Below, piece after piece: positions 24,131 to 27,350 of a stretch of 64,000 nt of DNA. Positions within the stretch are counted from its first letter, which is position 1. Each line of letters opens with the position of its first letter. The notes under the pieces were generated by a model that made no database searches, was not told the origin of the DNA, and saw nothing but the letters and a program-made list of their open reading frames with translations. Source of the stretch: Caldilineales bacterium. GTDB taxonomy: Bacteria > Chloroflexota > Anaerolineae > J102. The position numbers and the translations under genes are program-made. The stretch spans positions 62,001-126,000 of the forward strand of contig JAIBAP010000001.1 in the NCBI GenBank assembly GCA_019695115.1, given 5' to 3'.

Positions 24131-24520
24131 ATGCGAACAAACGTAGCGTTCTTCCTTCTTCTCGCCGGCGTCGCCCTCCTCAACGCCTGCGGGGGGCAGC
24201 AGACGCCCTCTCCCTTCGCCCCCGCCGGCCAATCCCAGGGCATGCCGACGCTGCTGTACGTGTTTGCCGACCCCTGACCGGCCTGAGAGCAGATGACGCC
24301 CATCGTGAATGGGCTGGAAGCTGAGTACGGCGAGCGCATCATCTTCGTGAAACTGGATGCCAACACGCCAGAGGGACGTCAGGCGATGCAGGCCTACCAG
24401 CTGCGCGGGCACCCGGCCATCGTGCTGTTCGATTCTGCCGGCGATGTGGCCTGGCAAAGCCTGGGCCTGCAAGGGCGCGAGGAGGTGGCCGCGGCTATCG
24501 CTCAGCTGGTCGAGCCTTGA
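24131..24520 (+). CDS. Thioredoxin-like lipoprotein with two in-frame TGA codons (candidate selenoprotein, UxxU)
   Basis: Read through two TGA codons, this is a continuous 129-residue protein. Residues 1-20 are a lipoprotein signal peptide with lipobox LNAC (Cys20). The strand LLYVFADP is followed by TGA-Pro-Ala-TGA at residues 49-52 (24275-24277 and 24284-24286), then EQMTPIVNGLEAEYGERIIF and VKLDANTPEGRQAMQAYQLR and GHPAIVLFD. That is a complete thioredoxin fold with the cis-Pro in GHPA, and the TGAs stand exactly at the CxxC cysteines. A perfect hairpin 11 nt after the second TGA fits a bacterial SECIS. Known from other families: Sec replaces Cys in redox motifs. Inferred: both TGAs are decoded as Sec. 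The alternative is a pseudogene or two read errors, which would have to hit both Cys codons. Confidence 0.72.
24298..24314 (+). promoter_or_regulatory. Candidate bacterial SECIS hairpin of the thioredoxin-like gene
   Basis: GCCCAT-CGTGA-ATGGGC: a perfect 6 bp stem with a 5 nt loop containing GU, starting 11 nt after the second TGA and 20 nt after the first. Spacing and a GU-bearing loop match the known requirements for SelB recognition; the loop CGUG is shared with the rhodanese hairpin. Confidence 0.6.
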
Positions 24521-24547
24521 TCAGCCGGTGGTCGATCTCCCCAAACG

Positions 24548-24820
24548 TCAGTCTCCATTCCAGTCTCCGTCAATGGCCGTGCCATTGGCAACTGCTTGCG
24601 TGCGTATGCGTTCCAGGGTGTCACGAAACCGCAGCATGACTTCGTCACTTGAGAGATGCGCCATCTCAGACGCAAGTCGCTCGGCCTCGTTCCGAATCTC
24701 GGTTGCGCTCGTCTGACGCTCGGCAGTCATGCGTTCGTCCGTCAGACGGCGAACGAATTCCATCACCCGCGCCACGTCTGGTTCGGGCAGAAGCGCTACT
24801 TTAGTTTGCTGTCCTTTCAC
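24548..24820 (-). CDS. Hypothetical protein downstream of the rhodanese
   Basis: 90 aa, GTG start overlapping the rhodanese stop by 4 nt. The sequence is charged and helical (VMEFVRRLTDERMTAERQT, NEAERLASEMAHLSSDEVML) without membrane segment, Cys or recognised domain. The overlap suggests it is translated as the third gene of the Hdr-rhodanese unit. It converges with the thioredoxin-like gene, leaving 27 nt between them. Confidence 0.5.
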   Translation of the reverse strand: MKGQQTKVALLPEPDVARVMEFVRRLTDERMTAERQTSATEIRNEAERLASEMAHLSSDEVMLRFRDTLERIRTQAVANGTAIDGDWNGD

Positions 24821-25347
24821 CCACCCTCCACCGCATACCCCGCCTCCTCCCAAACGGCAAAACCGCCCAACAGCGGCGTCACACGGCTGAAACCTGCCTC
24901 CAACATCATCTGCGCCGCACGGGCGCTGGTCTCTTCGGCCGGTCAGGTGCAGTAGGTGATGATCCACCGCCCCTTGTCCAACTTGCCCAGCTCCTGTTCG
25001 AGCCGGGTCAGGGGGATGGACTCGGCCCCAGCGATGTGGCTGGTCTCATACGAGCCGGCATCGCGCACATCCAGGAACAGGGCGCTGCCGGCGTCGAAGG
25101 CGGCTTTGGCCTCGGCCAGGGTGGCGCGTGGGATATCAGAGACGTTGACCGCAACGGGCGCAGCCGGGGTGGGGGCCAGGGCAGGCGGCGCCAGGGCAGG
25201 CGGCGCCAGGGCAGGCGGCGCCAGGGCAGGCGGCGCCAGGGCAGGCGGCGCCAGAGCCAGGGCGATCACCAAGATCAGCAGGGCCAGGCCCGCGCCCACC
25301 AGGATCAACGGCCAGCGCGAGGGAGAGGGCTTTGGGGAGGGTTTCAT
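24817..25347 (-). CDS. Membrane-anchored rhodanese with in-frame TGA (candidate selenoprotein, YCxU)
   Basis: A 176-residue protein if TGA at 24945-24943 is read through. It has an N-terminal membrane anchor (about 12-32), five Ala-Pro-Pro-Ala-Leu repeats (about 33-57) as a linker, and a rhodanese domain with ALFLDVRDAGSYETSHIAGA and GRWIITYCT-TGA-PAEETSA, then ARAAQMMLEAGFSRVTPLLG and GFAVWEEAGYAV ending at a normal TGA. Cysteine homologues have YCxCP at this site, so the TGA (residue 135) replaces the second Cys and the sequence after it is clearly rhodanese. The catalytic-loop Cys133 remains. A perfect hairpin follows 16 nt later. The gene start overlaps the Hdr-like gene stop by 4 nt. Sec decoding is inferred. 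Confidence 0.75.
24912..24926 (-). promoter_or_regulatory. Candidate bacterial SECIS hairpin of the rhodanese gene
   Basis: Read on the minus strand: GCGCC-CGTGC-GGCGC, a perfect 5 bp stem with a 5 nt loop containing GU, beginning 16 nt after the TGA. It has the same CGUG loop core as the hairpin in the thioredoxin-like gene. Confidence 0.55.
25176..25250. repeat. Five perfect 15 bp repeats in the rhodanese linker
   Basis: The unit CCAGGGCAGGCGGCG is repeated five times and encodes the Ala-Pro-Pro-Ala-Leu linker between membrane anchor and rhodanese domain. Identical copies make copy-number variation by slippage likely. Confidence 0.95.
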
Positions 25348-27350
25348 GACAACGCCTCAGCCACCAACTCGGCAATATCCTTCACTTGCAGGGCGCCTTC
25401 GCCCGCCTGTTTCGAGGCGTCGGTCAGCATGGTCAGGCAGAAGGGGCAGCCGACGGCGATGGTGCCGGCGCCGGTGGCGGCGGCTTCGTTGTAGCGATTG
25501 ACATTCACGGCTTCGGCGCCGTGCTCCTCCTCTTTCCACATCTGGGCGCCGCCAGCGCCGCAGCAGAACGACTTGCTGCGGCTGCGTTCCAACTCGATGA
25601 TCGGGCCGGTGGTCAGTTCCAGCACCGAGCGCGGGGCGTCGAAGACGCCGTTGTGCCGGCCCAGGTAGCAGGGATCGTGATACGTGACCTTGCCATCCTG
25701 CCAGGCGCCGGGCTTGAGCTTGCCCTCGGCCATCAGCTCGGCGATCAATTCCGTGTGGTGGATGACGTTGTACTGACCGCCGTACTGGTAATATTCCTTG
25801 CCCAGCGTGTGCAGGCAGTGCGGACAGGTGGCGACGATGCGTTTGGGCTTGACCTCGTTCAGGGTTTCGATATTCTGCGTTGCCATCTCGAAGAACAGGG
25901 CTTCGTTGCCGGCGCGGCGGGCGGCGTCGCCGGTGCAGTTTTCTAGGCTGCCCAGGACGGCGAAGTTGACGCCTGCCGCTTTGAGGACTTTGGCGAAAGC
26001 CTTGGCCGTGGCCTGCGCCCGCATGTCATAGGCCGGGGCGCAGCCCACCCACCAGAGGATGTCGGGGTTGGGGTTGTCGTCGATGGTGGGGATGTCGAGG
26101 CCGGCGGCCCACTTCATGCGGTCGGAGCGGCTCATCTTCCAGGGGTTGCCGGCGCGCTCCATGCCGGTGAAGGCCGTCTGCAACTGCTCTGGGAACTCGC
26201 TGTCCATCAGCACCTGGTTGCGACGCATGTAGAGGATGTCGAACATCGGCTCGTTGCCCACCGGACAGACTTCGACGCAGGCCCCACAGGCGGTGCAAGC
26301 CCACAACGCCGACTCGCTGAGGGCAAAATCGAGCATACGGTTGGGCGAAGCCTGCCCGCCGGCCAGGGCGTCGACGTTGGCATTGATGTAATAACGCTTG
26401 TTGACTTCGAGGGCGGCCGGGGAAAGCTCTTTGCCGGTGGCATAGGCGGGGCAGGCATCCTGGCAGCGGTTGCACATGATGCAGGCATAGGCATCGAGGA
26501 TGTGCTTCCAGGGCAATTGCTCCAGGTTGGCGACGCCGAACTGCTCCACCGCTTCGTCGTTGAAATCGATCGGCTCCAGCGTGCCCAACGAGGTGCGCTT
26601 GGGTCTGGCCAGGAAGTTCACACCCGACATGATCAGGTGGATGTGTTTGGTGTAGGGGAAATAGGGGACGAAAGCCAGAATGAGACCGAGCGCCACCCAC
26701 CAGGCCACATGCTCGGCCGTGATCAGCGCCGTCTCGGACCACCCCAGCCAGAGATTACTGAGAGTGGTGGCGAAGGGTTGGAAGAGGTCGGCGCCCTCGT
26801 TGGCCAGGGCAAAACTCTGGCCCAGGAAGCGGAAGCCAACATGGAAGAGGATGAACAGCCCGACGATGAGCGAATCGCGGCGAACCCCGCCTTCTCTCAC
26901 CCGATCCAGAAGCTTCACGTTCTGGCGGAATTTCAGAACCGGGGCGTCGAAGACAAAACGCCGCAGCAAGAAGTAGACCATCCCCACCAACACACCCACG
27001 CTGAGAATGTCCGCCAGCAGCCGGTAGATGTTCCCAATCCAGCCTTTGCCCAGGAACGTGATGGGGAAATAGCCCTCCACCACATCGCCGAAGTTGACCA
27101 GGAAGTAGAAAGTGAAGCCCCAGGCGATGAGGGCGTGGAACACGCTCGACCAGCGGCGCACCTTCCAGGTGGGGCGCAGGAACAGCCAGTTGAGACCCGC
27201 CTCGATGACCCGGCGGACGATGTTGGCGTCATCCACATCCCCCTGACCGCGGCGGATCACCTCGTAGACCTTGCGAAACGCCCAATAGCCGTTATAAATG
27301 GTGGCGATGAGGGCAAAGAAAAAGATGAATTTTTCGATGGGCGTGAGCAT
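25344..27350 (-). CDS. Membrane Hdr/DsrMK-like iron-sulfur oxidoreductase
   Basis: 668 aa fusion. The N-terminal half has about five or six membrane helices (residues 5-240) resembling the heme-b/NarI-like membrane module of DsrM/HmeC. Then come two 4Fe-4S motifs, CIMCNRCQDACP and CTACGACVEVCP, and two CCG-type domains (WWVGCAPAYD to ENCTGDAARRAG; CPHCLHTLGKEYYQ; HDPCYLGRHN to FCCGAGGAQMW). This is the pattern of HdrD/DsrK-type proteins that move electrons between the quinone pool and thiols/disulfides or ETF. Its stop overlaps the rhodanese start by 4 nt, which ties it to sulfur/thiol chemistry. AAGGAG precedes the ATG. Confidence 0.9.
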   Translation of the reverse strand: MLTPIEKFIFFFALIATIYNGYWAFRKVYEVIRRGQGDVDDANIVRRVIEAGLNWLFLRPTWKVRRWSSVFHALIAWGFTFYFLVNFGDVVEGYFPITFLGKGWIGNIYRLLADILSVGVLVGMVYFLLRRFVFDAPVLKFRQNVKLLDRVREGGVRRDSLIVGLFILFHVGFRFLGQSFALANEGADLFQPFATTLSNLWLGWSETALITAEHVAWWVALGLILAFVPYFPYTKHIHLIMSGVNFLARPKRTSLGTLEPIDFNDEAVEQFGVANLEQLPWKHILDAYACIMCNRCQDACPAYATGKELSPAALEVNKRYYINANVDALAGGQASPNRMLDFALSESALWACTACGACVEVCPVGNEPMFDILYMRRNQVLMDSEFPEQLQTAFTGMERAGNPWKMSRSDRMKWAAGLDIPTIDDNPNPDILWWVGCAPAYDMRAQATAKAFAKVLKAAGVNFAVLGSLENCTGDAARRAGNEALFFEMATQNIETLNEVKPKRIVATCPHCLHTLGKEYYQYGGQYNVIHHTELIAELMAEGKLKPGAWQDGKVTYHDPCYLGRHNGVFDAPRSVLELTTGPIIELERSRSKSFCCGAGGAQMWKEEEHGAEAVNVNRYNEAAATGAGTIAVGCPFCLTMLTDASKQAGEGALQVKDIAELVAEALS

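Follow-up and report, generated by a model that had tools for sequence, protein, structure and literature searches.

Within a stretch of 64,000 nucleotides on contig C1 of the 6.0 Mb genome of a Caldilineales bacterium (Chloroflexota; GenBank assembly GCA_019695115.1), hereafter the window, four neighbouring open reading frames (ORFs) drew attention because in-frame UGA codons in two of them would encode selenocysteine (Sec). The plus strand holds a gene for a thioredoxin-fold lipoprotein of 129 aa (24131-24520; lipobox LLNAC, UGA stop), whose active site reads UPAU, with Sec at positions 49 and 52. Convergent to it, the minus strand carries a membrane Fe-S protein of the EtfD/FadF type (668 aa, 25344-27350), a membrane-anchored rhodanese of 176 aa (24817-25347) with Sec135 in the motif YCTU, and a charged ORF of 90 aa with a GTG start (24548-24820). 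The Fe-S ORF and the start of the rhodanese share 4 nt (ATGA, 25344-25347), as do the UGA stop of the rhodanese (24817-24819) and the GTG of the 90-aa ORF (GTGA). These overlaps and the convergent lipoprotein had been described in a first-pass annotation, made from the letters alone, and they are confirmed here; the same annotation took the four ORFs for a single functional module, which the comparison with relatives, set out below, does not support.

Both UGA genes are, as far as can be judged from sequence, real selenoprotein genes. The two Sec codons of the lipoprotein gene lie 9 nt apart in UGA-CCG-GCC-UGA (24275-24286, with UGAs at 24275 and 24284), and the single one of the rhodanese gene is at 24943-24945 of the minus strand. 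Translation with table 11 yields truncated ORFs for these genes, and ordinary annotation cuts short two real selenoproteins. The genome encodes the machinery for Sec insertion, with matches to tRNA-Sec (73 bits), SelB (335), SelA (553) and SelD (353) all above the curated cut-offs. Alignments with relatives continue past the UGA in both genes, and the UGAs occupy the same positions, those of the catalytic Cys. Among 20 genomes of the family, the UGA rhodanese is present in 7, with one UGA each time, and the two-UGA thioredoxin in 7 as well, at eight loci; a profile search of 400 genomes of the phylum found the thioredoxin in 24 and the rhodanese in 55, with 0, 1 or 2 UGAs per gene. Each gene also carries a hairpin resembling a selenocysteine insertion sequence (SECIS): GCCCAU-CGUGA-AUGGGC in the thioredoxin (24298-24314, plus strand), which is conserved and covarying, and GCGCC-CGUGC-GGCGC, 3' of the rhodanese UGA (24912-24926, minus strand). 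Pairing is kept in 98.5% of the cells of the alignment for the thioredoxin and 99.1% for the rhodanese, with 2 and 3 pairs, respectively, altered on both sides in a compensatory manner, and the pairing of both hairpins is lost when the partner columns are shifted as a sliding control. Synonymous codons within the hairpins are near-invariant (Ala, Arg, Ala, Ala; Pro, Ile, Val, Gly), and those for nearby Leu, Pro and Gly vary; a pattern search for Cys homologues of the rhodanese, intended to supply a control for this codon freezing, gave none. A read-through scan of all ORFs yields many chance UGAs, of which we retained only UGAs whose U/C sites match between genomes and whose product is a plausible protein. 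The UGAs of the window go beyond such chance because the Sec machinery is present, their sites are conserved in relatives and the SECIS hairpins covary, and the first-pass proposal of two extracytoplasmic selenoproteins of the thiol/persulfide type is borne out. As a separate observation, the SelD gene of this genome (L295, G000:C3:3875-4810) contains an in-frame TGA, and SelD is probably a selenoprotein itself.

The folds of the two selenoproteins are clear from their family matches. The lipoprotein matches the thioredoxin family PF00085 with 34.4 bits (gathering threshold 23.5) and the cytosolic thioredoxin model TIGR01068 with 38.5 bits, under the 96.8-bit cut-off, and its CxxC-type active site reads UxxU. 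Relatives are of the CxxC, UxxC or UxxU type, and within the class UxxU is spread over four groups of family rank (f1, f2, f3 and f12); the tree requires 2 changes for UxxU, and 20% of the bootstrap trees show it arising once, which leaves its monophyly unsettled. This gene has one hairpin, whose apical loop stands some 20-25 nt away from the second UGA; the first UGA is 9 nt further off, so that a single SECIS probably serves both. With selenoprotein thioredoxins (PF00085, UxxC) and with SelL/Prx-like UxxU proteins the window protein shares the thioredoxin fold and the active-site motif; from the known PF00085 selenothioredoxins it differs in being UxxU, a form that occurs in four or more families within one class. 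The table of a review on the prokaryotic selenoproteome gives the PF00085 thioredoxin as UxxC, with one Sec, only (PMC13188914), and a literature search on Sec thioredoxin lipoproteins of Chloroflexota found none. A two-Sec active site in a PF00085 thioredoxin, with apparently one SECIS for two UGAs, is absent from that table and apparently new, and diselenide chemistry of UxxU has been published for another redox family, according to the citation of Shchedrina 2007 in PMC2398784. As CxxC, UxxC and UxxU form a series within a single bacterial class, the transition to a diselenide active site can be put to the test.

The rhodanese matches PF00581 (53.7 bits) and, over nearly the whole profile, the rhodanese_LYCAU model NF041203, at 70.7 bits and under the 115-bit cut-off; its relatives score 73.6 and 86.3 on the same model. 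CxU rhodaneses of the NF041203 type are already listed in PMC13188914, together with DsbG-like NF041057, CYCXC PF13798 and DUF1573 selenoproteins. The window protein shares with this rhodanese-like selenoprotein form 3 a CxU that replaces the usual active loop, but scores under the cut-off, lies in a metal-gene context and bears a membrane anchor, a single hydrophobic helix at the N-terminus, ahead of the stretch matched by NF041203. A further likeness concerns TsoB (NF045694), a selenoprotein resembling a rhodanese/DsbD fusion, whose N-terminal part is matched by the window rhodanese (E 4.6e-6) and whose C-terminal part by the thioredoxin (E 0.0096), which hints that domains of these kinds are able to cooperate; the window has two separate genes, however, with no DsbD domain between them, and they score far under the family cut-off. 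Two side observations may be added on the rhodanese. An in-frame tandem repeat of APPAL units (25165-25260) forms the linker that joins the membrane helix to the rhodanese domain and is absent from the aligned relatives, and homologues elsewhere contain two in-frame TGAs (genomes G124, G148, G288, G172 and G227) or an in-frame TAG (G240 and G278).

The neighbourhoods of these genes in relatives were surveyed with our own ORF caller, which checks each of the six frames against typical amino-acid frequencies. Around the UGA rhodanese (15 loci, 96 neighbours) there are 9 P-type ATPases, 7 HMA, 5 FeoA/DtxR and 4 ArsR proteins, 4 further rhodaneses, 2 multicopper oxidases and 2 PCuAC. The thioredoxin (21 loci, 125 neighbours) is accompanied by 4 cupredoxins, 3 cytochromes c, 3 DsbA-type selenoproteins and 2 each of Sco, PCuAC, P-type ATPase, DUF411 and DUF3105. 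In the window itself, a multicopper oxidase with a weak TAT-type signal (22812-23855) and a ZIP-like membrane protein with a weak Pfam Zip match (21606-22808), both on the minus strand, form a pair whose counterparts adjoin the UGA rhodanese in genomes G074 and G024 too; in G074 the surroundings comprise a multicopper oxidase, ZIP, DtxR, a cupredoxin, PCuAC, DUF305, DUF3105 and Sco. A single stretch of 10 kb in genome G007 (L087, contig C42:20000-37684, positions 1861-11586) holds four UGA selenoproteins, of the PCYCGC type, the UxxU thioredoxin, a DUF1573 type with GCUPP and the CxU rhodanese, with cytochromes, cupredoxins, PCuAC and a metal P-type ATPase around them; this is the one other genome where the thioredoxin and the rhodanese lie within 6 kb of each other. 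The DUF1573-like proteins with GCUPP (Cys-Sec) were noted at three loci (L086:2439-2972, L087:7171-7671, L093:5844-6341), with invariant positions, and the placement of Sec differs from that of the DUF1573 entry in PMC13188914, which is UGC. Near the UxxU thioredoxin we also noted tandem two-domain lipoproteins resembling DsbA/DsbG, with UPYC followed by CPFC (L094:1512-2933, L095:7490-8854, L096:8125-9498), of which that of L094 exceeds the cut-off of NF041057 (Rcas_1661 seleno-lipoprotein).

Taken together, we consider it moderately probable that the region contains two real and mutually independent genes for selenoproteins of the cell exterior, as well as an unrelated EtfD-type gene, and that the two selenoproteins form an extracytoplasmic selenol/thiol redox pair for metal (copper) handling or persulfide control. 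Both would act outside the membrane, as their predicted topology suggests. The diselenide/diselenol of Sec49-Pro-Ala-Sec52 would make the lipoprotein a fast extracytoplasmic thiol-redox centre, acting much as TlpA does, as a reductant (or oxidant) of the thioredoxin type. In the active loop of the rhodanese, Cys133-Thr-Sec135, Cys133 would accept sulfane sulfur (or else enter an oxidised or metal-bound thiol state), which Sec135 may resolve as an S-Se bond, and this bond could in turn be reduced by a thioredoxin-like partner, for example the UxxU lipoprotein. The probable job of such a pair would be to keep Cys and metal sites of extracytoplasmic proteins, putatively copper proteins for the most part, in the right redox state, to control persulfides, or both. 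The closest known parallel is the assembly of copper sites by TlpA, Sco and Cox2 in Bradyrhizobium, where the membrane-anchored extracytoplasmic thioredoxin TlpA acts on copper proteins, reducing ScoI and CoxB (PMC6696091); Sco, PCuAC and COX2-like genes likewise stand near the selenoproteins in relatives, and the window protein differs in having Sec in place of Cys, in being of the PF00085 type and in that its target is a presumed one. A DsbD/CcdA-type electron conduit is encoded elsewhere in the genome (contig C37), with no link to the selenoprotein genes shown. A more specific version of this scheme, which we hold only tentatively, is a Chloroflexota selenium redox relay for extracytoplasmic copper/metal proteins, in which the diselenide thioredoxin, made from one SECIS and two UGAs, would reduce the S-Se bond of the Cys-x-Sec rhodanese, together with the DsbA-, DUF1573- and PCYCGC-type selenoproteins of the same neighbourhoods. 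The metal-gene context would tie the use of Sec outside the bacterial cytoplasm to the handling of copper and other metal proteins.

Several points weigh against this interpretation of the pair. The thioredoxin and the rhodanese are close to each other only in the window and in G007, and in G355 they are some 640 kb apart, so the link between the two is weakly supported. The neighbour counts rely on our own ORF caller and on genomes that are related, and because of this relatedness the loci are not independent. The rhodanese is strongly associated with metal genes and the thioredoxin moderately so (each family supplies 2-4 of its 125 neighbours), and one group of rhodanese paralogues occupies a different, non-metal site. 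In addition, the rhodanese follows the EtfD-like gene with the 4-nt overlap, and co-transcription of the two in this strain is likely.

Of the other explanations, the one that survives best makes the rhodanese mainly an enzyme of sulfide/persulfide stress under an ArsR-type regulator, as in E. coli ygaVP or in systems with BigR/SqrR, and the thioredoxin a general extracytoplasmic reductant. YgaV of E. coli is a sulfide-responsive repressor of the rhodanese gene ygaP, which is co-transcribed with it (PMC9774250); at 9 loci a gene of the ArsR/SmtB type is next to the UGA rhodanese or close by, and the UGA rhodanese often has a second, PspE-like rhodanese beside it. However, the family tallies of the neighbourhoods contain no persulfide dioxygenase or sulfide:quinone reductase, the neighbours are mostly metal transporters, ArsR regulators sense metals too, and no ArsR gene adjoins the window rhodanese. 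A metal role agrees better with the neighbours than a persulfide role, though ArsR proteins are possible sensors of either, and we regard the stress enzyme as possible but unlikely.

The first-pass annotation had gone further, proposing a surface reductase for persulfides/disulfides or oxyanions of sulfur or selenium, in which an Hdr/DsrMK-like protein moved electrons between quinones and the selenoproteins. That the third protein is a membrane Fe-S protein linked to quinone and heme b stands, and its ligand set is that of EtfD. Its nearest named relatives belong to metagenome-assembled genomes labelled Caldilineales/Chloroflexota, and among solved structures it is best matched by EtfD from Mycobacterium smegmatis (PDB 9ojn, E 8e-117), an ETF:menaquinone oxidoreductase (EtfD/FadF/EMO) with which it shares the bis-His heme membrane part, two [4Fe-4S] clusters and two CCG domains, and from which it differs in lacking the long disordered C-terminal tail. 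It keeps all of the cluster and heme ligand positions published for EtfD (PMC13083937): the heme ligands H72 and H236 or H238, the Cys residues of both cubane [4Fe-4S] clusters (C290/293/296/300/352/355/358/362) and the linear [3Fe-4S] and noncubane ligand sets (C437/472/509/512; C561/596/597/635/638; H511). The DsrK model gives 61 bits and does not reach its 400-bit cut-off. In the first CCG domain, the sequence ENCTGD contains only one Cys, as in EtfD, and because Hdr has an additional Cys there, a catalytic heterodisulfide site of the HdrD/DsrK type is judged, from these ligands, to be absent. The Fe-S domains of EtfD take electrons from cytosolic electron-transfer flavoprotein (ETF; PMC13083937), and since its ligand set is conserved, the window protein is expected to oxidise reduced ETF on the cytoplasmic side rather than to reduce extracellular disulfides; most likely it passes electrons from ETF to the quinone pool.

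The genomic distribution of the Fe-S protein points the same way. It is found in 20 of the 20 family genomes, and none of its 80 closest homologues in named genomes, which are 57-83% identical to it, carries either selenoprotein gene nearby, within flanks of nominally 4 kb per side, shorter at contig ends; because of this the trio is peculiar to this genome among those examined, and the neighbourhood of the Fe-S protein is not conserved. None of the neighbour families of the thioredoxin and the rhodanese is among the families listed for 11 EtfD-like loci, and the two sets of neighbours have no gene family in common beyond isolated cases. Among the 80 loci, one lies beside EtfBA and an acyl-CoA dehydrogenase (L252) and two near a thiolase (L215 and L219); the window itself shows no genomic link of the EtfD-like gene to etfAB or beta-oxidation. 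An Hdr-linked reductase is consistent with the 4-nt overlap on the same strand and with the membrane part of the quinone/heme-b type, but the lack of linkage in 80 homologues, an Fe-S protein that is universal in the family where the selenoproteins are patchy, the EtfD ligand set with its single Cys in CCG domain 1, and the cytosolic ETF side, which is the wrong side for two exported proteins (PMC13083937), make it very improbable, and a false lead, that of an Hdr-linked module, is thereby removed. Still less credible, to the point of being negligible, is that the UGAs are true stops in decayed genes, as the ORFs truncated under table 11 might suggest: the complete Sec machinery, frozen codons and intact downstream similarity all oppose it, and degraded genes are ruled out by the conserved UGA sites and the covarying hairpins.

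The 90-aa ORF, which gives a weak match resembling the Mnt repressor, belongs to a small dispersed family with two more copies in this genome (G000:C84 and G000:C7) and one in G001 (G001:C180); it adjoins the rhodanese in no relative, and we reject it as a partner of the system. Lastly, a paralogue of the EtfD-like protein with 44% identity directly follows etfBA on contig C7 of the same genome, in a cluster (L109, G000 contig C7:13143-27206) whose genes, named by eye, are HdrA-like, EtfB, EtfA, the EtfD paralogue, GcvH-like and lipoate-ligase-like, an arrangement that recalls lipoate-binding sHdr systems.

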